NCBI RefSeq assembly: GCF_014695385.1
Contig: NZ_JACJOD010000034.1
Span: 1-64,000, forward strand
DNA from: Trichocoleus sp. FACHB-46
GTDB lineage: Bacteria > Cyanobacteriota > Cyanobacteriia > FACHB-46
Reading direction: 5' to 3'
DNA length: 64,000 bases
Below, piece after piece: positions 33,894-49,233 of the stretch. How positions within the stretch are numbered: position 1 is the first letter of the stretch; each line of letters starts with the position of its first letter. The notes beneath the pieces were generated by a model that worked only from the letters and a program-made list of their open reading frames with translations, had not been told where the DNA came from and made no database searches. The translations under genes and the position numbers were made by a program.

Positions 33894-36800
33894 ATGGGTA
33901 AGAGCTGGTTCCGCACAGTTTCTCAGGTTGTTGTCTTCCTGGTTGGATTGTGGTTGGCATTTGATTTGCTAGCTCGTCTAGGGGGAGAGGTGCTTTGGTT
34001 TCAGGAATTGGGCTATTCACCCGCGTTTTTACTGCGGGTCTGGACTAAAGCCTGTCTCTGGACGATCGCCTGCTTGGTGACGGTCGGGTTTTGGTTTGGT
34101 AATTTTGCGATCGCCCAACGCTTGCAGTACCAGAGGCCGCAAGAGCAAGATCTAAGCCCCAAGGACATTTTGTTGGGAAATCGGGTGGCTCGGCCTCGCG
34201 GCTTAGGGGTGACTAAGTTGCTGCCGCTGGCGGTGGGGTTAAACCTGTTGGTAGGCGTGATGCTGCTTTACTACGCTCAGGTGGCGGGACGCTATTGGCA
34301 TCCTCCTAGCTGGCTGGGCAAGGCTTTTGCTAGCTTTTCCAATGCATCACTGCCGTCCCCTCAGCGCTTAGAACCAGAAATCATATGGCAAATCTTGGTG
34401 CAATTGCCGACTCACCTGCCGCAGGCGGCAGTGTTGGGTGGGCTTGTGCTGGGGCTAACAATTGCCCCTCGGTTTTGGTTGCGAGCGATCGCAGTGGTTT
34501 TAGCAGTGGGGTTTGGGGTCACGCTGGATGGCCACTGGGCACAGGTTTTGCAGTACTTCTATCCCACGTCGTTTAACAGTACTGATCCGCTTTTTGGTCG
34601 CGACATTAGTTTTTATGTCTTCACTCTGCCAGTCCAGCAACTCCTTGCCTTTTGGCTGACAGGTTTAACCCTGTATGCCTTAGTGTCAGTAACGCTGTGG
34701 TACCTCCTATCGGGAGAAAGCTTGAGTGAGGGCAACTTTCCGGGATTCTCGGCTCCGCAAGTTCGCCACTTACAGGGCTTGAGCACTAGCCTGATGGTCG
34801 CGATCGCTTTTAGTCACTGGCTCAGTCGTTACGAGTTGCTGTACTCCTCTAGAGGCGTGGTTTATGGCGCTAGCTACACGGATGTAACGGTACAGTTGCC
34901 GATTAACACTGGCTTGAGCTTTTTGGCCTTGGCGATCGCGGTTTTTCTACTTTGGCGGACGATAGTCGGCTCGAAGCGAGCGAGCCAATCCGCTCCTTGG
35001 CTGTATGGGTTGAGCTTGTACGTTGCGGTTGTGGCGATCGCGGGCATCGCTTTACCAGAGGCAGTGCATCGTTTTGCCGTACAGCCTAACGAGCTAGCAC
35101 GGGAACGTCCTTATATCGAGCGCAGCATTACCCTAACCCGTCAAGCTTTTGACCTGCAAGCCATTGATGCTCAAACCTTTTCCCCCACTGGAGAACTGAC
35201 CCGCACTGACCTGCAAGCCAACCAACTCACCCTCCGCAACATTCGGCTCTGGGACACACGACCACTCCTACAAACCAATCGGCAGCTACAACAAATCCGG
35301 TTGTATTATCGGTTTCCAGATGCGGATGTCGATCGCTACACGCTTTTGAAGGATGAAGGCGGAAGAACGTTCGCGAAGCGTTCCGAAGGAAGGGATGATA
35401 TTGCTTCTTCTCTCCTCACTCCTAACTCCACCCTGCAAGAACGCTTTCAGCGAACACCCTTCACTACCGAAAAGCAGCAGGTTCTAATTTCGGCGCGGGA
35501 GTTAGATTACAGTGCGGTGCCGCAACAAGCTAAAACTTGGGTGAATGAGCACTTGGTCTACACCCACGGCTATGGATTTACGCTTAGCCCAGTGAATCGG
35601 GTGGGGCCAGGGGGTCTGCCAGATTATTTCGTTAAAGATATTGGGGTCAACCCAGCCGATGATAATGCTAGCTCTTTGACGACTTCCAGCGCTGGAATTA
35701 GAGCCAGTATCCCCATTGGTCAGCCTCGACTCTACTACGGGGAGATTGCTAATACCTATGTCATGACTGGGACGAGAGTCAAGGAGTTGGACTATCCCAG
35801 TGGAAACGACAACGTTTACAACACCTACGGGGGGCGCGGTGGTGTCTTCCTGAATTCTCAATGGCGACGGTTGCTATTTGCCAAGTACTTAAATGATTGG
35901 CAGATGGTGTTAACTCGCAACTTTACGCCCCAAACCAAGGTGCTGTTCCGTCGCAACATTAATCAGCGGATTCGGGCGATCGCCCCTTTTCTGCGTTATG
36001 ACAGTGAGCCTTATTTGATTACGGCTGACACCAACCCAGAGGCTAATGCTGGCGATGATTCAGCCGACCAAAATTATCTTTATTGGATGGTCGATGCCTA
36101 TACCACGAGCGATCGCTATCCTTACTCAGACCCTGGCAATCATCCGTTTAACTACATTCGTAACTCGGTCAAGGTGGTAATCGATGCTTACAATGGTTCG
36201 GTTGATTTTTATGTCGCTGACCTGACAGACCCAATTATTCAAACTTGGGCCAGAATCTTTCCAGGATTATTCAAACCGATCAGTGATATGCCCGCTGCCC
36301 TTCTCAGCCACGTCCGCTATCCAGTCGATTTTTTCAATGTGCAATCAGAGCGGTTGCTGACCTACCACATGACTGATCCGCAGGTATTTTATAACCGGGA
36401 AGATCAATGGCAGGTTCCGGTAGAAATATATGGCAGTAAACCGCAGTTAGTGGAACCCTATTACCTAATTACTAGCCTGCCCGGGAGCGATACAGAAGAA
36501 TTCATTTTGTTGCTGCCCTTTACGCCGCGACAGCGCAATAATCTGATTGCTTGGTTGGCAGCGCGATCGGACGGAGAAAACTATGGCAAGCTGTTGCTCT
36601 ACGAGTTTCCTAAACAGCAATTGGTCTACGGGCCAGAGCAAATTGAAGCGCGGATTAACCAAGACCCGATTATTTCTCAGCAAATTTCCTTATGGAATCG
36701 GCAAGGTTCACGGGCGATTCAGGGCAATCTGTTAGTGATTCCGATCGAGCAGTCATTGTTGTATGTTGAGCCTCTATATCTGGAAGCTGAGCAAAACAGC

Positions 36801-36974
36801 TTGCCTACTTTAGTCCGAGTCATTGTGGCTTACGAAAACCGTATCGTCATGGCCGAAACGTTTGACCAAGCTCTAGCAGCCGTGTTTGAAGCTAAAGCAC
36901 CCACTGCCCCAGTGGTGCGTCCCGTAGCCGCTCCCACACCTCCGACTCCATCGCCTGTCCCCTCAACGCCCTGA
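33894..36974 (+). CDS. UPF0182 family membrane protein
   Basis: A 1026-residue protein of the UPF0182 family. The N-terminal third holds seven or more membrane helices (from about residue 8 to 400) and the family segment [22 protein letters not shown] large domain follows with [30 protein letters not shown] and the [21 protein letters not shown] and [11 protein letters not shown] blocks. Function is unknown. Compared with the family pattern, the stretch about 484-520 (after DRYTLLKDE) carries extra residues that derive from a short palindromic sequence. The C terminus is Pro-rich. The next gene begins 21 bases downstream, implying co-transcription. Confidence 0.92.
35358..35394 (+). repeat. 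Repeat-like palindromic insertion inside the UPF0182 gene
   Basis: GAACG and CGTTC arms flank TTCGCGAA within a GGAAG...CGAAGGAAGG context, translating to [12 protein letters not shown]. Short palindromes of this look are common dispersed repeats in cyanobacterial genomes; I see no second copy in this window. The frame stays open. Confidence 0.5.
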
Positions 36975-36995: not shown

Positions 36996-39900
36996 ATGGC
37001 AACCATCCGTGAAGCGTTTGTTAGCGCCGTTCAGCATCACGAAGCTGGGCAGTTGCATCAAGCCGAGCAGCTTTACCGCTTAATTTTGCAGCAAGAGGCT
37101 AATTATTTCCCTGCCTTGCATGGCCTAGGGCTAATTGCTTACCAAGCTGGTTACATTGAGGAGTCGATCGCGCACTACCGCCAAGCGATCGCCCTCAAGC
37201 CTGAGGTTGCTGATGCTTACAACAATCTAGGATTGGCTTTGGTTGCCAATGGTGAATATGCGGCGGCTGTGGCTAGCTACCAGCAAGCGATCGCTCTAAA
37301 TCCCCGCTACCCAGAAGCCTACAACAACTTAGGCCATGCCCTGCGGCATCAAGGCAAAGTAGCTGAGGCGATCGCAGCTTATGACAAAGCGATCGTGCTG
37401 AAGCCAGAATTTGTCTCGCCTCATTGGAATCGGTCTCTGGCTTTGTTGCTGGGTGGAGATTTAGGCCAAGGCTTTGCGGAATATGAATGGCGCTGGCGAC
37501 GCGAAGGCAAACAACTACGCCCATTTCTCCAACCTCTCTGGGATGGCTCAAACCTATCGAGACGGCGGATTCTGCTATATGCCGAGCAAGGGTTCGGCGA
37601 CACGATGCAATTTATTCGCTACGCCACCTGGGTTGCAGAACAAGGCGGGCAGGTGGTGGTAGAGTGCCAAGCTCCCTTAGTTCGCTTAGTCCAAACGGTG
37701 CCCGGAGTGCAAGCCGTTGTCGCTCAAGGTGAAGCTTTACCCGCCTTCGATGTGCAGAGACCGCTGATGAGCTTACCTTGGCTCCACGGCACCACCCTAG
37801 AAACCGTTCCTGCTCAGGTGCCCTATCTTCAGGTTCCTAGCTCTAGCTCGATCACCTTGGTCACCCCTCCAAGCACCCAGTTAAAAGTAGGGTTCGTCTG
37901 GTCGGGCAATCCAGAAAATCGCAATAATCGCAATCGCTCCTGTACAGCGGGTGACTTCCGCCCTTTGCTAAATATCCCTGGCGTAACGCTTTACAGCTTG
38001 CAAAAAGCAGCCCAACCAGAAGAACTGGCTCAACTGGGTGCACTGAGCGATCGCATCCAAGATTTAAGCCCCCAGTTACAAGATTTTGGTGATACAGCCG
38101 CCGCGATCGCGCAACTTGATTTAGTTGTCACGGTAGATACAGCAGTCGCTCATTTGGCTGGAGCTTTAGGTAAACCTGTCTGGGTATTGCTTTCGTTTGC
38201 TCCCGATTGGCGCTGGATGCTGGAGCGAGAAGACACGCCTTGGTATCCCACCATGCGGTTGTTTCGGCAAGCTCAATTTGGTGATTGGGCAGGTGTGTTG
38301 ACGCGAGTGGTGGCAGCACTGCGGGAGGCGATCGCTCAACCGCAAAAATATTTACTAGATAAAAGCCAAACCTCACCCCTAGCCCCTCTCCTACAGGAGA
38401 GGGGTGCCGCAGGCGGGGTGAGGTCAGCCAATGCTCTACCCGAGCAAGATTGGGCAGCACTCCTAAAAACTGCTATCCAGCACTATCAATCAGGTCGTTT
38501 GGCGGAAGCCGAGCAAGTTTATCAGCAAATTTTGCAAGCACAACCCAACCAAGCCGAGGTTTGGCAGTTGCGGGGGGCATTAGCCGCCACTGAGAAACGT
38601 AACTCTGACGCGATCGCCTACTACCAAAAAGCCTTAGCCCTTAAACCCAACTTTCCGGAAGCGCATAGTAACTTGGGCGTAGCGCTCAGCCAAACCGGGC
38701 AAATTGAGGCGGCAATTTTTCATTACCGACAAGCGATCGCCCTGAATCCTGGAGCCGCTGAGTTGCACCACAACTTGGGGGCCGCGCTGAAAGAACAAGG
38801 CCAAGTTGATGCCGCGATCGCGCATTACCAGCAGGCGATCGCGCTGAATCCCAACTACGCCATGACCTACAACAACTTGGGCACAATCTGGGAGGCCCAA
38901 GGTCGCTATAGCGAGGCAATGGTTTGCTACAACCAAGCGCTAGCCGTTAATCCTGAGAATGTCGACGCCCGCTTTAGCAGAGCGATCGCGCTATTACGGA
39001 TCGGTGACTTGAGGCGAGGTTTTGAGGAATATGAGTGGCGGTGGCGACGACCAGACATGAAGCCACAACCATTCAAACAACCAATTTGGGATGGCTCTGA
39101 CTTGTCAGGAAAAACCCTGCTGATTCATACAGAGCAAGGGTTTGGCGACACGATTCAATTCATTCGCTATGTAGCCTTAGTAGCGCAGAAGGGAGGCCGC
39201 ATCCTTGTGGCTTGTCAGCAAGCGTTATCCACGCTGGTTCAGCCCCTCCCCCAGATTCAGCAATTTATCGTCGAGGGTCAGGCCATCCCCAAGTTTGATG
39301 TCCATGCGCCACTATTAAGCTTGCCGCGAATTTTAGACACCAGCCTGGAAAACATTCCTGCCCAGGTGCCCTACTTGCAGCCTCCAACCTCCAGCCTGAC
39401 TTTAGTCGCCCCACCAGCCACGCAACTCAAAGTTGGCTTGGTTTGGTCAGGTAATCCTACCCATCCGCACAACAATCAGCGCTCTTGCCCCCTCCAGCAG
39501 TTTTTGCCTCTGCTAGAGCTGCCTGGAGTTGCGTTCTATAGTTTGCAAAAAGGCCCGCAAATTGCTGATTTAGCGCAACTCCCCTCTACGGCAATTCAAG
39601 ATTTAAGCCCCCAGTTACAAGATTTTGGCGATACAGCCGCCGCGATCGCCCAACTCGACCTCGTGATTGCCATTGATACCTCCGTGGCTCATTTAGCGGG
39701 AGCCTTAGGCAAGCCAGTTTGGTTGCTGCTCGACACCTCCCCTGACTGGCGCTGGCTCACCGATCGCGAAGATAGCCCTTGGTACCCGACAATGCGGCTA
39801 TTTCGGCAAACCACTGCGGGAAATTGGCCTGAAGTCATTGAGCGAGTCAGTCAAGCACTGCAAAAATTATTAGCCAGTTGCCTGCCTACACCTCTGAGTG

Positions 39901-42530
39901 ATTTGGAGGCGGCGATCGCTACTGCCCTCCAAAGGCACCAAACTAATCAACTAGAGGCAGCCAGCACCATTTACTTTCAGGTATTGCAGCAAGACCCCAA
40001 CCACCTAGATGCCTTACATTTGCTAGGAGTGATCGCGCACCAAAAACGCCAATTTGACCAAGCGATCGCTTACTACAAGCGGGTGTTGGCGATCGCGCCC
40101 AACTTTGCCGAAGCCCATGCCAACCTCAGCGCCACGCTGCGGGAACAAGGCCAGTTTGCGGAGGCGATCGTCCATTGCCAAAAAGCTTTGGCGATCAACC
40201 CCAACTTCACGAACGCTTATGCCAGCTTGGGCTTAATTTACCGTCAGCAAGGCAAGTTGGATCAGGCGATCGCAGCCTACAACCAGGCTCTAGCTAAAAA
40301 TCCTGACGATATTGAGACTCATTGGAATCGCGCTTTGGCTTGGCTGATCAGCGGAGATTTCCAGCAGGGATTTGTCGAGTACGAATGGCGCTGGCGACGA
40401 CCCCACCGACGGTCTCGTCCTTTTGCTCAGCCACTATGGGATGGCTCAGACTTGCAAGGGCAAACTATTTTGCTCCATGCAGAGCAAGGCTTTGGCGATA
40501 CGATTCAATTCATTCGCTATGCGGCTTTGGTCGCTGAGCGCGGCGGACGGGTGATTGTGGAATGCCAAGCCCCACTGCTGCGCCTATTGTCTGGGATGGC
40601 TGGCATCGCTCAACTCGTGGCTCAAGAAAACCTACTGCCCGTCTTTGATCTGCACACACCACTGCTGAGCTTGCCGCGCTTGTTGGGTACCACGGTAGAC
40701 ACCATCCCTGCCTCAGTTCCCTACATTGTCCCTCCGACACAATCCGCCGTAAAGCTCAGCGCACCTGCTGGCCATCTGAAAGTTGGCATCGTTTGGTCGG
40801 GCAGCCGCACGAATCAAAACAACCATCATCGCTCTTGCTCACCGCACTGTTTTCAACCATTGCTGACGATACCAGGAGTCAGCTTCTACAGCTTGCAGAA
40901 AGATGCCTCAGTTGCAGAACTCGCCCAACTCACCAGTGACGGTGCAACCGTAGAGAATTTAAGTTCGCAGTTGCAAGACTTTGCTGATACAGCCGCCGCG
41001 ATCGCTCAACTGGATTTAGTGATTACCGTGGATACTTCTGTGGCTCACTTGGCAGGCGCAATGGGCAAACCTGTGTGGGTGCTGCTCACCTTTGCCCCTG
41101 ATTGGCGTTGGCTGTTAGAGCGAGAAGATAGCCCTTGGTATCCCACGATGCGGCTGTTTCGTCAGCAACAACCGGGTGACTGGGCAGCTGTGATCAGCCA
41201 TGTCCAAGAAGCATTGCAAACATTAGTAGAGACACCATCGCCATCAACCCATTCTCTTCCTGCCATGCCCCAGCCTTCTCCTGAATTCGCAGCAGCTACT
41301 CCACCCGACAATTCTACTAACGTCACTCCCCCACCTCCCACCGCAAACACTAAGCCAGTGAGACCCATTGGTATCGGCTGGCAACTGAGCTTAATGACAG
41401 GATGGGGAGTTTACGGCATCAACTTCACGCTCCAGTTGCAGCAGCATCCTCACTTCGCTCCGATGTTGCTGACACCCGCCTCAGTCACCTCAGAACTGCT
41501 CAATCCGCTACACCAAGTGCTGTTGCGTCCTGCGATCGCCCAACAGGGAAATCTACAAAACCTGCTGGCTAACTACCCCAAGCAACAAGTCGGCTTAGAT
41601 ATCCCCATCTTCTACGCCTTGGGCAAAGATTTTGACTCTAAACTGTTACCGCGAGTCTCCGGTCAGCGCAATTTCGGCGTGGTGTTTTTTGAAGATACGG
41701 CCCTAAAACCAGAAGCCATTGCCAAGGCTAAAACCTATGATGCGATCGTGGCAGGCTCAACTTGGAACGCCCAAGTATTGCAAAGCTACGGCCTAGAAAA
41801 CGTCTACACCGCCCCTCAAGGCATTGACCCAGCGATTTTTCATCCTGCTCCCAAAGCCAATTTGTTTCGCGATCGCTTCGTGATTTTTTCCGGCGGCAAG
41901 TTGGAGTACCGCAAAGGTCAGGATATCGTGATTGCAGCTTTCAGGGCGTTTCGCGATCGCCACCCAGACGCATTACTCCTCACGGCTTGGCATAATTTCT
42001 GGCCACAATTCATGTTGGGGCTGGAGCAATCAGGTCACGTCCAAGGTATGCCAGCTATTCATGCTGATGGTCGCTTACGAGTAGTGGAATGGCTCGTTGC
42101 AAATGGGATTCCCGCCGATGCCTGTATTGATGTTGGCCCCATTCCCAATCACATGGTGGGGCAGATTATCCGTGAAGCCCACGTTGCGGTATTTCCCAAT
42201 CGCGCAGAAGGCGGCACCAACTTGGTAGCAATGGAAAGTATGGCTTGTGGGCTACCCACGATTCTCTCAGCCAATACGGGCCACTTAGATTTGATTGGGA
42301 GCGATCGCTGCTACGCCCTCACTCATCAAAAACCTGCTAAATCAATTCCCATTTTCCAAGGTGTAGAAGGCTGGGGCGAATCAGACGTAGAAGAAATCGT
42401 GGAAGCTCTAGAACAGGTCTACACCGACTACCAAACCGCTCAAGCCAAGGGCCAAGCCGCCGCCCGCTTCATGCAAAATTGGATCTGGGAAAAACAAGTG
42501 CAACGCTGCCTCACCGGACTCAACCTATAA
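36996..42530 (+). CDS. Giant TPR protein with three GT9-like modules and a C-terminal GT4 domain
   Basis: An 1844-residue protein. Three consecutive modules of about 470 residues each consist of TPRs followed by a glycosyltransferase-like domain of the TPR-linked GT9/heptosyltransferase type, marked by EYEWRWRR, EQGFGDT.QFIRY and LVWSGNP, then DLVVTVDTAVAHLAGALGKPVWVLL and DWRWMLEREDTPWYPTMRLF. Module 1 covers about 1-455, module 2 about 480-960, module 3 about 965-1405. A Pro/Ser-rich linker (about 1405-1455) leads to a GT4-type glycosyltransferase (1455-1844) with GKLEYRKGQDIVIAAF and the EGGTNLVAMESMACGLP donor-binding segment. No membrane helices or signal peptide, so cytosolic. Acceptors and sugars are unknown. 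Similar DNA in modules 1 and 2 implies internal duplication or conversion. Confidence 0.9.
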   Translation: MATIREAFVSAVQHHEAGQLHQAEQLYRLILQQEANYFPALHGLGLIAYQAGYIEESIAHYRQAIALKPEVADAYNNLGLALVANGEYAAAVASYQQAIALNPRYPEAYNNLGHALRHQGKVAEAIAAYDKAIVLKPEFVSPHWNRSLALLLGGDLGQGFAEYEWRWRREGKQLRPFLQPLWDGSNLSRRRILLYAEQGFGDTMQFIRYATWVAEQGGQVVVECQAPLVRLVQTVPGVQAVVAQGEALPAFDVQRPLMSLPWLHGTTLETVPAQVPYLQVPSSSSITLVTPPSTQLKVGFVWSGNPENRNNRNRSCTAGDFRPLLNIPGVTLYSLQKAAQPEELAQLGALSDRIQDLSPQLQDFGDTAAAIAQLDLVVTVDTAVAHLAGALGKPVWVLLSFAPDWRWMLEREDTPWYPTMRLFRQAQFGDWAGVLTRVVAALREAIAQPQKYLLDKSQTSPLAPLLQERGAAGGVRSANALPEQDWAALLKTAIQHYQSGRLAEAEQVYQQILQAQPNQAEVWQLRGALAATEKRNSDAIAYYQKALALKPNFPEAHSNLGVALSQTGQIEAAIFHYRQAIALNPGAAELHHNLGAALKEQGQVDAAIAHYQQAIALNPNYAMTYNNLGTIWEAQGRYSEAMVCYNQALAVNPENVDARFSRAIALLRIGDLRRGFEEYEWRWRRPDMKPQPFKQPIWDGSDLSGKTLLIHTEQGFGDTIQFIRYVALVAQKGGRILVACQQALSTLVQPLPQIQQFIVEGQAIPKFDVHAPLLSLPRILDTSLENIPAQVPYLQPPTSSLTLVAPPATQLKVGLVWSGNPTHPHNNQRSCPLQQFLPLLELPGVAFYSLQKGPQIADLAQLPSTAIQDLSPQLQDFGDTAAAIAQLDLVIAIDTSVAHLAGALGKPVWLLLDTSPDWRWLTDREDSPWYPTMRLFRQTTAGNWPEVIERVSQALQKLLASCLPTPLSDLEAAIATALQRHQTNQLEAASTIYFQVLQQDPNHLDALHLLGVIAHQKRQFDQAIAYYKRVLAIAPNFAEAHANLSATLREQGQFAEAIVHCQKALAINPNFTNAYASLGLIYRQQGKLDQAIAAYNQALAKNPDDIETHWNRALAWLISGDFQQGFVEYEWRWRRPHRRSRPFAQPLWDGSDLQGQTILLHAEQGFGDTIQFIRYAALVAERGGRVIVECQAPLLRLLSGMAGIAQLVAQENLLPVFDLHTPLLSLPRLLGTTVDTIPASVPYIVPPTQSAVKLSAPAGHLKVGIVWSGSRTNQNNHHRSCSPHCFQPLLTIPGVSFYSLQKDASVAELAQLTSDGATVENLSSQLQDFADTAAAIAQLDLVITVDTSVAHLAGAMGKPVWVLLTFAPDWRWLLEREDSPWYPTMRLFRQQQPGDWAAVISHVQEALQTLVETPSPSTHSLPAMPQPSPEFAAATPPDNSTNVTPPPPTANTKPVRPIGIGWQLSLMTGWGVYGINFTLQLQQHPHFAPMLLTPASVTSELLNPLHQVLLRPAIAQQGNLQNLLANYPKQQVGLDIPIFYALGKDFDSKLLPRVSGQRNFGVVFFEDTALKPEAIAKAKTYDAIVAGSTWNAQVLQSYGLENVYTAPQGIDPAIFHPAPKANLFRDRFVIFSGGKLEYRKGQDIVIAAFRAFRDRHPDALLLTAWHNFWPQFMLGLEQSGHVQGMPAIHADGRLRVVEWLVANGIPADACIDVGPIPNHMVGQIIREAHVAVFPNRAEGGTNLVAMESMACGLPTILSANTGHLDLIGSDRCYALTHQKPAKSIPIFQGVEGWGESDVEEIVEALEQVYTDYQTAQAKGQAAARFMQNWIWEKQVQRCLTGLNL
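38371..38423 (+). repeat. 53-bp palindromic repeat inserted in frame between modules 1 and 2
   Basis: Outer arms CCTCACCCC and GGGGTGAGG enclose an inner hairpin CCCCTCTCC-TACA-GGAGAGGGG. The element lies inside the giant TPR-glycosyltransferase gene and is read as SPLAPLLQERGAAGGVR at about residues 460-476, the linker between modules. Palindromes of this type are, from memory, dispersed in many cyanobacterial genomes; only one copy is seen here. Confidence 0.85.
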
Positions 42531-45407: not shown

Positions 45408-47063
45408 TTAGACACGAGTAAATAACAGGTTAAATACCTTAGTGGTGTCGCAATATTGGTTAGGTTCTAGCTTAACTAAATTGGGCGAACTAGCTTGCAT
45501 TAAATAAGCGTCATATCCGAGCGATCGCATCCATTCTCGCAGTTCAGTTTCGTTGGTTCCCATTTGCTGTAAACCGAAACGATTGACTTCAGAAATAATG
45601 TAAGGAACTCGATGAGTTTTCAGAATGTTTATACTGCCCTTCAAAACTTGCAACTCTGCGCCTTCGGTGTCAATTTTAATCATCTTAGGCGGGATAGAGT
45701 TTTGGTCAGTCAAGGCTTGGTCTAGCGTGGTAACACTAACCTTCTTTGTTGCTTGGCTCATCCGACTTTTTTGATTAAATTGGTGCGCTCCCACATTCCA
45801 CAAAGCATGACCACCATCATTATCTAAATTGACAAAAAATTGGGCTTCTTTTGTTTCAGCTCCTAAAGCAACATTAAAAACCTTGAGATTTGGGAGTTGA
45901 TTCAGTTCAATGTTTTCTAAGATCTTTTTGTAGTTCGCCGACTCCATTTCAAAAGCCAGCACACTACCCGAACCACCAACCAAAGTAGCTGCTAAAAGAG
46001 AGAAATAGCCCACATGTGCCCCAATATCAATAAAGCGATCGCCGGGACGCAACGTTTGAATCAAAAAATCAGAAACTTCTGTTTCATACAGCTTGCCAGC
46101 GCTAAAACGCGACAGCATGAGTTGCTGGGTATATTTTTCCGCATCCAAGTACAGCTTTAACTGTTTGGTTTCTTGGTTACTAGTAATTGATAAATTCACC
46201 ACTTGGGTTTTAGTGGGCGAAACGGCAGGTTGCCTGGTAGGGGCGATCGCGCCATTGGCATCGTTGAAGATCGTAGGCCGACCAATCGGAGACAAGCCAG
46301 GTTGCAAAGTCACAGGACCATGCATGACTGTGGCAATTCTGCGAGCATCGGCTTCTCGATATGGGGCGGTTCTGCCAAACAAATCCATATCTCGTCGCAC
46401 CGCAGGCTTAAGATTTCCCTGAGAGTCCACCTGCTTGAACTCGTAAGTGGAATCAATTTCAGCCTTGCCATAGCCCCAATGCAAATGCTCTGTCAACACA
46501 TCGGGAATGTAGTGCAAGCGCCCGACTCGCTTGGCAATATCCATAATCCACAGATCATCATACAAACACTCAAAAATGCCTGTAATGAAGTAGCCCAACG
46601 TTAAACACCATTTGCGGCTGACAATGGGGAAGGTGCATAGCTTCTCGCCCCAGTGACCTTCGTTGAACCACATGCAAAAAATCTCATCTGGGAATTTTGC
46701 GGTTTCTTGGTCGAGTCGCGTATCCCACCCTGCGTCGTTATAAATTTGGTCATCAGCGGCCATGACTAGAAGATCGCCTTGGGAAGCAGTCGCCAAGGCA
46801 TTCCAGGCTTTAGAAACCCCAATTGGCTCGTTGACCATCAAGAAGCACTGCTTTAAGCGGTTGAGTTCTGTTTTATGAGCTTTCAGTTGCTCCACGTAGT
46901 CCAGTTTGGTGGAGTCGTCGGTATCTACATAAAATAAAACCTCGACTCTTTCCGGATGGTGCGCGGTTTTCAGCACACTTAAGACGAGACGGAGGGCTTT
47001 ATCAGGTCGTCCTCGCGTGGGGCAAAGCAAGGAGATCGTTTTCAGCGGCGTTGACATGCTCAA
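45408..47063 (-). CDS. GT2-type glycosyltransferase fused to FkbM-family methyltransferase
   Basis: A 551-residue bifunctional protein. The N-terminal part (about 8-235) is a glycosyltransferase-2-like domain: ISLLCPTRGRPDKALRL, EVLFYVDTDDS and a DDQIYN acidic site in LLVMAADDQIYND. A linker (about 235-330) leads to a FkbM-type SAM-dependent methyltransferase (about 335-545), with IDIGAHVGYFSLLAA (motif I) and MIKIDTEGAELQVLKG (the IDVEGxE-type hallmark). Such fusions typically build or decorate surface glycans. It is divergent from the TPR/O-GlcNAc-transferase-like gene at 47374 and is followed by gntK 20 bases on. Confidence 0.9.
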   Translation of the reverse strand: MSMSTPLKTISLLCPTRGRPDKALRLVLSVLKTAHHPERVEVLFYVDTDDSTKLDYVEQLKAHKTELNRLKQCFLMVNEPIGVSKAWNALATASQGDLLVMAADDQIYNDAGWDTRLDQETAKFPDEIFCMWFNEGHWGEKLCTFPIVSRKWCLTLGYFITGIFECLYDDLWIMDIAKRVGRLHYIPDVLTEHLHWGYGKAEIDSTYEFKQVDSQGNLKPAVRRDMDLFGRTAPYREADARRIATVMHGPVTLQPGLSPIGRPTIFNDANGAIAPTRQPAVSPTKTQVVNLSITSNQETKQLKLYLDAEKYTQQLMLSRFSAGKLYETEVSDFLIQTLRPGDRFIDIGAHVGYFSLLAATLVGGSGSVLAFEMESANYKKILENIELNQLPNLKVFNVALGAETKEAQFFVNLDNDGGHALWNVGAHQFNQKSRMSQATKKVSVTTLDQALTDQNSIPPKMIKIDTEGAELQVLKGSINILKTHRVPYIISEVNRFGLQQMGTNETELREWMRSLGYDAYLMQASSPNLVKLEPNQYCDTTKVFNLLFTRV

Positions 47064-47373
47064 GATCCTCGATCAGGCAAAATTCTAGGGGATTAGCAAA
47101 GTGGGGCAACTCACTTTAGCGAGTGGCAAAGGCTCAAGCCATTCGTTCAACTCAACAACAGCTAGCCTCTATTTCTCTTGATCATTCCCAACATAATGTC
47201 TATCTGAAAGCGCAACTCAGCTTTTGTGAGGCAATCTGGGACCGAGTTTTGATATTGAGCTTTGAGATGCGGGGTTGGGTAGGGAATGCTGGAGTCGGTG
47301 TAGCGTTAAAGTTACAGACTTGAGATGAGACAAGTTTGCAGGCAAGATTCAGTGGAGCAAGGCATTGGGCGGT
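47064..47373. promoter_or_regulatory. Divergent region between two glycosyltransferase genes
   Basis: These 310 bp separate the GT2-FkbM gene and the TPR/OGT-like gene. The open frame of 66 codons here has no ribosome-binding site or protein-like composition and is not called. Promoters for both genes should lie here. Confidence 0.35.
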
Positions 47374-49233
47374 ATGGTGAATATTTCTGAAGCTTCGGCG
47401 ATCGCACTCCAACATTTTCAGGCCAAGCGGTGGTCTGAAGCTGAGCAAATCTATCGGCAAATTTTGCAGCAGCAACCCAACCAAGTTGAGGCTCTGTCTC
47501 AGTTAGGGCTGATTGCTCAACAACAAGGGCAGATTCAAGCGGCAACTCAGTATTGGCACCAAGCGGCAACCCAATATTGCCAGCTGGCTCTGGCCTGCTT
47601 CAACCGTCGCCAACTCGATCAAGCGATCACTTACTACCAGCAAGCGCTAGCCCTGCAACCTACCGCCTCCGACATTCATACCAACTTAGGTAATGTTTAC
47701 CAAGACTTGGGCCAAGCGGAAGCCGCGATCGCCTCTTACCAGAAAGCTCTAACTCTCAAGCCCGATTCGGCTGAGGCCCACAACAACCTCGGCAATATGT
47801 ACAAACGCCAAGGTCAGTTGGCAGAAGCCAGCACCCACTACCAGCGAGCAGTAGTGCTACGCCCTGACTTGGCCGAAACCTACAACAACTTGGGCAACGT
47901 GCTCAAAGACCAAGGACGGATGACGGAGGCGATCGCGGCTTATCGGCAGGCGATCGCGATGAAACCCGGTTTGATGGAAGCGAAGAGTAATCTGCTGTTC
48001 TCGCTGCACTACGACAGCACCCACGACCCGGAGACAATTTTTGCTGAGCACAAACGCTGGGCCGAACAGTATGCCGAGCCGCTGACTCAAGCGGCGACGC
48101 CACACTTAAATGATCGAACTCGCGATCGCCGTTTGCGGATTGGTTATGTCTCCCCAGACTTTAACGCCCATCCGGTGGGATTTTTCATCGGCTCTGTACT
48201 CGCGGCTCACGACCATGCCAACTATGAGGTGTTCTGCTACGCTAATCTGCTGGCCGCTGATGGCTTGACCGAGCAATTCCGCCGCTTTGCTGATGGCTGG
48301 CGCGACATTATTAGCCTTAGTGACGAGCAAGTAGCCCAGTTGGTCCGCCAAGACCAGATTGATATTTTGGTGGATTTAGCAGGACATACGGCTGGCAACC
48401 GCATTTTGGTGTTCGCGCATAAACCTGGGCCGATCCAAGTGACTTACTTGGGTTACCCCAACACCACAGGCTTGTCAGCGATCGATTACCGCCTGACTGA
48501 TACCTGGGCCGATCCCGTAGGAGTGGCTGATACTCGTCACACCGAGAGCTTAGTGCGGCTACCCCGTGGCTTTCTCTGCTACCAAGCAGCACAAAACGCC
48601 CCAACTGTAGAAGCATTGCCCGCGCTGACGAAGGGATACGTCACCTTTGGCTCCTTTAATAACTTGGCCAAGGTGACACCAGAAGTGATTGCAACTTGGG
48701 CCAATATCCTCAAGGCCGTACCCCAATCTCAGATGGTTTTGAAATACAAAGCTTTGACTGATGCGGCTACTCGTCAGCGCTTTCATGATTTGTTCACTCA
48801 ACATGGCGTGACTAGCGATCGCATCCACCTACTAGGGCACGTCTCTTCTTTTGCCGAGCACTTAGCCCTTTATCACCAAATCGACATTGGCCTTGACAGC
48901 TTCCCCTACAACGGCACTACCACCACCTGTGAAGCGCTATGGATGGGGATTCCGGTGATTACTCTGGCTGGCAAAAGTCATGCGGCTAGGGTGGGGATGA
49001 GCTTGTTAGCCAATCTAGGGCTGACCGATTTGATTGCTGTGTCTTCAAACGAGTATGTAGCATTGGCCAAACGTTTAGCCGAAGACCGCGATCGCCTACG
49101 CTATCTCAGATCCAATTTGCGCTATCTGATGTCGCGATCGCCTCTAACAAATGGGCGCGGTTTTACTCAAACGCTCGAAAGCCTGTATCGGCAAATGTGG
49201 CATCGCTGGTGTGACGCGCCAAGCAAGCCGTAG
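47374..49233 (+). CDS. TPR protein with O-GlcNAc-transferase-like (GT41) domain
   Basis: A 619-residue protein. At least five TPRs (about 5-200) include repeated NLGNVYQDLGQAEAAIASYQKAL-type units, here ending in ALTLKPDSAEAHNNLGN. The C-terminal catalytic region (about 240-610) is of the SPINDLY/OGT family: RLRIGYVSPDFNAHPVGFF, DLAGHTAGNRI, VTYLGYPNTTGL, YVTFGSFNNLAKVTP, HLLGHVSS and LDSFPYNGTTTTCEALWMG. It is cytosolic. Bacterial relatives glycosylate proteins or lipids; the acceptor is unknown. The frame extends to TTG 47365 but ATG 47374 is preferred (MVNISEAS), with GGAG and AAGG upstream. Confidence 0.92.
   Translation: MVNISEASAIALQHFQAKRWSEAEQIYRQILQQQPNQVEALSQLGLIAQQQGQIQAATQYWHQAATQYCQLALACFNRRQLDQAITYYQQALALQPTASDIHTNLGNVYQDLGQAEAAIASYQKALTLKPDSAEAHNNLGNMYKRQGQLAEASTHYQRAVVLRPDLAETYNNLGNVLKDQGRMTEAIAAYRQAIAMKPGLMEAKSNLLFSLHYDSTHDPETIFAEHKRWAEQYAEPLTQAATPHLNDRTRDRRLRIGYVSPDFNAHPVGFFIGSVLAAHDHANYEVFCYANLLAADGLTEQFRRFADGWRDIISLSDEQVAQLVRQDQIDILVDLAGHTAGNRILVFAHKPGPIQVTYLGYPNTTGLSAIDYRLTDTWADPVGVADTRHTESLVRLPRGFLCYQAAQNAPTVEALPALTKGYVTFGSFNNLAKVTPEVIATWANILKAVPQSQMVLKYKALTDAATRQRFHDLFTQHGVTSDRIHLLGHVSSFAEHLALYHQIDIGLDSFPYNGTTTTCEALWMGIPVITLAGKSHAARVGMSLLANLGLTDLIAVSSNEYVALAKRLAEDRDRLRYLRSNLRYLMSRSPLTNGRGFTQTLESLYRQMWHRWCDAPSKP

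Follow-up and report, generated by a model that had tools for sequence, protein, structure and literature searches.

A single-chain, probably multi-catalytic glycosyltransferase with three TPR-GT9 modules and a GT4 domain in Trichocoleus

A gene in the 64,000-bp window (the whole stretch of DNA analyzed) encodes, in one chain, three tandem modules, each a TPR superhelix followed by a GT9-like GT-B domain, and a C-terminal GT4 domain. Residue conservation and selection indicate that this is probably a real, conserved, multi-catalytic enzyme. The favored function, with a probability of about 0.5, is that of a soluble cytoplasmic multi-site glycosyltransferase acting on a surface protein that is held by the TPRs.

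The gene and its modules

Three tandem TPR-glycosyltransferase copies with their own motif blocks, followed by a GT4 domain, had been proposed by the sequence-only reading and were borne out by the open frame, which contains neither an internal stop nor a frameshift, by Pfam, and by an alignment of modules 1 to 3 from end to end (Table 1). The threefold repetition is far above chance and visible in the DNA as three copies, 60 to 77% identical, with spacings of ~1548 and ~1350 nt. The GFGDT block is at residues 199-203, 715-719, and 1165-1169 of modules 1, 2, and 3, respectively, the DT(A/S)VAHLAGA block at 381-390, 894-903, and 1346-1355, and PDWRW at 403-407, 916-920, and 1368-1372. The modules are unequal in size, with about one extra TPR in module 2, which is preceded by a linker of ~40 aa.

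Pfam assigned ten TPR stretches to the 1844-aa chain, all above the cut-off. Glyco_transf_9 (PF01075) reached 65.5 bits for the whole protein (cut-off 22) in three stretches and 29.0, 25.7, and 22.3 bits for the single modules; Glycos_transf_1 (PF00534) reached 42.5 bits (cut-off 26.4). The GT41 profile PF13844 was absent among the 25 best Pfam families of the chain (E up to 7e-6). A PDB sequence search with the GT9 profile gave no credible match.

The model of module 1 (pLDDT 96, pTM 0.93) was a TPR superhelix plus a GT-B domain, and its best Foldseek matches were SPINDLY and OGT, which are protein glycosyltransferases. WaaC and TibC were not among the 50 Foldseek rows listed for the TPR-containing model, which were filled by TPR proteins. 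The model of module 3 plus GT4 reached a pLDDT of 88, with a disordered linker before GT4 (pLDDT 32-35), and its top Foldseek row was PDB 8qoy, with a TM-score of 0.27 by query length. The GT4 fold matched BshA, sucrose-phosphate synthase, and HepE with Z values of about 30 (2jjm: Z 30.4, rmsd 3.0 over 319 residues).

TABLE 1 Features of the gene and its neighborhood (positions in the window; res, residues)
Feature	Position	Strand	Basis and remarks
UPF0182 membrane protein gene	33894..36974	+	Pfam; 21 nt upstream of the 1844-aa gene; close likewise in both congeners
Whole gene, [TPR-GT9]3-GT4	36996..42530	+	ATG at 36996, stop 42530, 1844 aa; open frame, Pfam, module alignment
Module 1 TPR superhelix (res 1-150)	36996..37445	+	Pfam TPR; model pLDDT 96
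Module 1 GT9-like GT-B domain (res 151-448); D202, D381, H386	37446..38339	+	Pfam, model, residue conservation
Fast-evolving linker 1 with palindromic insert	38340..38453	+	dN/dS 0.5; 21-29% identity to congeners
Module 2 TPR superhelix (res 487-690)	38454..39065	+	Pfam, module alignment
Module 2 GT9-like GT-B domain; D718, D894, H899	39066..39881	+	Pfam, module alignment, residue conservation
Module 3 TPR superhelix (res 967-1116)	39894..40343	+	Pfam, module alignment, model
Module 3 GT9-like GT-B domain; D1168, D1346, H1351	40344..41240	+	Pfam, model, residue conservation
Disordered linker, module 3 to GT4 (res 1416-1454)	41241..41357	+	pLDDT 32-35; fast-evolving
GT4 domain (res 1455-1844); invariant K1635, R1639, K1640, E1738, E1747	41358..42527	+	Pfam, fold match, alignment
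GT2-FkbM fusion, possible partner	45411..47063	-	Pfam; in Laspinema and Oscillatoria, split homologues are next to the family gene
TPR-GT41 protein (SPINDLY/OGT type), possible partner	47365..49230	+	Pfam; not syntenic in congeners

The host genome (6.56 Mb) is cyanobacterial according to its relatives, of which 428 were found. Both available congeners possess the full-length gene, about 83-84% identical and at the same position behind HemA and UPF0182. In linker 1 of the window, an inverted repeat, ACCTCACCCC...GGGGTGAGGT, is inserted at 38369-38422 and translated in frame as SPLAPLLQERGAAGGVR; the whole genome contains the left arm only once. The palindrome resembles a short palindromic repeat that is common in other cyanobacteria.

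Conservation of the sites

The invariant residues were intact in all three modules of the window. In a set of 281 modules from relatives, the Asp of GFGD, the Asp of VDT, and the His of AHLAG were all kept in 277, the GFGD Asp being present in 280 and the VDT Asp in 279. Most of 16 further tabulated positions were nearly invariant, so that the near-invariance covers D, D, H, W, R, and Y positions. In heptosyltransferase I (WaaC), D13 and D261 are essential (PMC5713226). The residues D381, D894, and D1346 aligned with the DS...H block of the canonical GT9 protein of the genome (E 0.0012; hhalign probability only 19%), and by this low-probability profile alignment the VDT Asp maps to WaaC D261 as its putative counterpart. 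The GFGD Asp would be the counterpart of D13 by its place in the GFGD block; the profile alignment with the canonical GT9 covers the C-terminal half only.

Both donor-motif glutamate residues of GT4, E1738 and E1747 (42207-42236), were invariant across the 41 family sequences aligned. They are separated by eight residues (E-X8-E) across the family; the usual GT4 donor motif is E-X7-E. When the gene was compared with both congeners, dN/dS was 0.08-0.12 in every TPR and GT9 block and 0.04 in GT4, and the linkers had diverged to 21-45% identity. These intact residues and the purifying selection support the earlier suggestion that one soluble chain has four potential sites for sugar transfer.

Distribution of the family and origin of the modules

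A search of 291 genomes of the class with the GT4 domain as the query found it in 37 genomes, belonging to 26 of 130 genera, in open frames of about 400 to 4169 aa. The architecture was read in 40 unnamed and 80 named loci and can be written as [TPRm-GT9]n-GT4, with n from 1 to 7. One module is present in Phormidesmis, FACHB-471, UBA2566, Roseofilum halophilum, and others; two in Planktothricoides and FACHB-1515; three in Trichocoleus, the genus of the window, Leptolyngbya DLM2, Laspinema D2d, and several others; four in Laspinema palackyanum; five in most sampled genomes of Microcoleus, Tychonema, and Lyngbya and in Trichodesmium; six in genome G007; and at least seven in a frame of G020, where the 5' end of the gene is cut off at the locus edge. 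The “3+1” architecture on which the sequence-only reading had focused was thus found in the genus of the window and in others, and it is not fixed. TPR numbers are constant by position, namely 8-6-10-7-3 in most Microcoleus-type loci. The family gene is split into several frames in Okeania, Hormoscilla, and some MAGs, for which decay or assembly errors are possible causes.

A few chains contain additional domains. In one of 3724 aa (L063:1532-12703), a TPR-GT41 module precedes five TPR-GT9 modules and the GT4 domain, which places two TPR-glycosyltransferase types in one polypeptide. Other chains of the family carry added GT2-FkbM or GT47 domains. In two small-genome cyanobacteria (L069:9233-15409 and L072:8771-14887; Pfam for L069 only), GT47 (exostosin-like) is fused to TPR-GT9 and GT2 to GT4. 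The genome of the window encodes on contig C10 (L167:6679-9937) a second, single TPR-GT9 protein of 655 aa, which is 51% identical to module 2 and adjoins a GT2-TPR protein.

In a tree of 142 modules, the three modules of the window and those of the congeners formed one clade (SH-aLRT 94, short search), inside of which the modules grouped by position with full support. The same pattern of clade first and position second appeared in Microcoleus and other lineages, and the modules of one protein tended to be each other's closest relatives. This grouping indicates that module multiplication took place for the most part separately within the single lineages, after which the order of the modules was kept.

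Neighboring genes

The UPF0182 gene is likely co-transcribed with the 1844-aa gene. The nearby glycosyltransferase genes had been taken as a sign of a glycan-related locus, and this did not hold: the GT2-FkbM and TPR-GT41 genes were absent from the flanks of the congeners as far as these were read, so that a conserved glycan locus around the gene was not found. These flanks keep HemA and UPF0182, in one congener also a membrane protein and a kinase. In Laspinema and Oscillatoria, the family gene has split homologues of GT2-FkbM as neighbors (69-72% and 54-56% identical), in G051 a fused one, and an FkbM gene adjoins the family gene in L150 and L153. GT2-FkbM as a partner of the enzyme is only suggestive, because the flanks read in the congeners do not contain it. 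Family genes of Microcoleus reside among housekeeping genes; in FACHB-471, genes for an ABC-transporter-like ATPase and a GT2 protein are near the family gene. CHAT-domain genes are situated some kilobases from the family gene in Microcoleus and Planktothricoides loci. Profiles of defense systems matched nothing relevant.

Evidence for a proposed protein acceptor

Outside of the cyanobacteria, GT4 is mostly encoded by a separate gene, which in several loci is near free-standing TPR-GT9 genes (a deltaproteobacterium, Verrucomicrobia, Geminicoccaceae, and Chthonobacter). This proximity of separate genes supports an assignment of GT4 and TPR-GT9 to one pathway. Three non-cyanobacterial loci, all in MAGs, contain an adjacent flagellin gene, which is positioned between TPR-GT9 and GT4 in L156, adjoins GT4 in L147, and closes the order flgL-like gene, TPR-GT9-GT4, FkbM, and flagellin in L150. 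Flagellin genes were present in 15 of 15 non-cyanobacterial carrier genomes, a count not corrected for kinship. Of 288 genomes sampled from the G303 phylum, only 30 encoded flagellin, and both GT4 carriers of that sample (G303 and G434) were among them, again uncorrected for kinship. Flagellin was not found in ten cyanobacterial genomes tested, that of the window and nine others, so that the acceptor there must differ, and no conserved acceptor gene was located beside the cyanobacterial family genes.

Two alphaproteobacterial loci (L154:9914-21118 and L158:9875-21073) share one gene order, which comprises [TPR-GT9]3, a lone TPR-GT9, a GT4 gene of its own, and the gene for an RTX protein, the latter adjoining [TPR-GT9]3. 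RTX neighbors are also present in the cyanobacterial loci L063, L066, and L138. With dozens of RTX repeats per genome, three neighbors among ~45 independent loci are about background, and on this count an RTX acceptor is not claimed for cyanobacteria. Glycosylated RTX surface proteins of cyanobacteria are known, for example SwmA and oscillin (PMC3034196); proteins of this type had no convincing linkage to family genes at the loci examined.

Possible mode of action

We infer the enzymatic activity itself, the protein acceptor, the order of action, and the donor sugars. In each module, the TPR superhelix would keep the acceptor protein, or its glycoform as this grows, next to the GT9-like GT-B site, which would transfer one sugar; the three sites may work one after the other or at the same time. 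A further sugar would be added in a retaining reaction by GT4 on its flexible tether, and FkbM and GT2 partners would probably complete the glycan. The acceptor would be a protein that is secreted or on the cell surface: in flagellated relatives flagellin, and in cyanobacteria another surface protein, for which a protein of the RTX/S-layer type is one candidate. The assembly line for an oligosaccharide or the processive action suggested by the sequence-only reading is hypothetical; a protein acceptor is the better-supported target.

Alternatively, the modules may extend a carbohydrate, such as a lipid-linked or LPS-type oligosaccharide or an exopolysaccharide repeat, with the TPRs holding partner enzymes only. 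GT9 (heptosyltransferase) and GT4 are classic families of LPS and EPS synthesis, HepE of Anabaena and WaaG are among the nearest GT4 folds, the multi-domain capsule enzyme 8qoy was the top Foldseek row for module 3 plus GT4, and FACHB-471 has the ATPase and GT2 neighbors. However, no wzx/wzy/Wzt set is conserved beside the family genes, those of Microcoleus being surrounded by housekeeping genes; the TPR-GT-B layout is that of protein glycosyltransferases, and the flagellin association outside of the cyanobacteria would be left unexplained. Such an assembly function is unlikely.

It is also rather improbable that the modules share one reaction and serve many sites of a repetitive acceptor, in which case a higher n would raise throughput and not set glycan length. 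Positions fixed within a genus, constant TPR numbers, and the deep divergence between positions speak against identical tasks and suggest differentiated roles of the modules, although modules within one protein tend to be closest relatives, n changes freely between lineages, and the donor-side halves of the modules are more alike (64-66%) than the acceptor-side halves (54-57%). A colinear, template-free assembly line, in which a protein-linked oligosaccharide would have its length and composition set by the number and kind of modules, is a speculative and rather improbable reading. Lineages would then alter the glycan through duplication or loss of modules (n = 1 to 7, sometimes plus GT41), in a manner that would parallel modular peptide or polyketide synthases. 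A scaffold with GT4 as the single live enzyme and the GT9-like units as degenerate binding domains would agree with their weak Pfam similarity (22-29 bits per module, limited to the C-terminal half) and was rejected as very improbable, since the D, D, H, W, R, and Y positions are nearly invariant in the 281 modules, the catalytic residues, whose loss in relatives the sequence-only reading had linked to a scaffold, are intact in 277 of them, and dN/dS is similar across the modules at ~0.1, with 0.04 in GT4.

Single TPR-glycosyltransferases and two-domain glycosyltransferases are already known; a description of a one-chain family with a module number of 1 to 7 was not found in the open-access literature. 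The range of n provides a natural series for relating module number directly to product. The enzymes for glycosylation of cyanobacterial surface proteins are, to our knowledge, largely unassigned, and the family is a candidate route for such a glycosylation in the cytoplasm.

Comparison with known systems

The capsule multienzyme of Actinobacillus pleuropneumoniae serotype 3 (PDB 8qoy) likewise has several catalytic domains per chain, but its product is a capsule polymer and the structural match is partial (TM-score 0.27 by query length). In dGT1 of Streptococcus parasanguinis, one polypeptide with two glycosyltransferase domains performs successive steps on an adhesin (PMC5063993). The Trichocoleus protein resembles it in the combination of several such domains in one polypeptide, whereas dGT1 is composed of DUF1792 and GT-A domains, contains no TPRs, and has two sites only.

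The GT9 heptosyltransferases (WaaC) and the BAHT autotransporter heptosyltransferase TibC (PMC5713226, PMC4358343) share with the modules a PF01075 match above the cut-off and the DT...H block as aligned to the canonical GT9 of the genome; unlike these enzymes, the modules are fused to TPRs and arranged in tandem, and their N-terminal half is not alignable by profile. With respect to the ADP-heptose route, the domain I kinase of rfaE is present in the genome and gmhA had no match there. OGT and SPINDLY (GT41) also combine a TPR superhelix with a subsequent GT-B domain and gave the best Foldseek matches, but the modules match GT9 and not GT41, are repeated 1 to 7 times, and are fused to GT4.

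In FlmG of Caulobacter crescentus, the TPR domain binds flagellin and a GT-B domain of 288 aa glycosylates it in the cytoplasm (PMC7591256). FlmG is a single module without GT4, the tested cyanobacteria contain no flagellin, and the likeness is one of layout. It includes the N-terminal TPRs followed by a C-terminal GT-B domain of ~290 aa, and relatives adjoin flagellin genes. This precedent, together with the flagellin association, favors a soluble enzyme from which a TPR-bound surface protein would receive several sugars.
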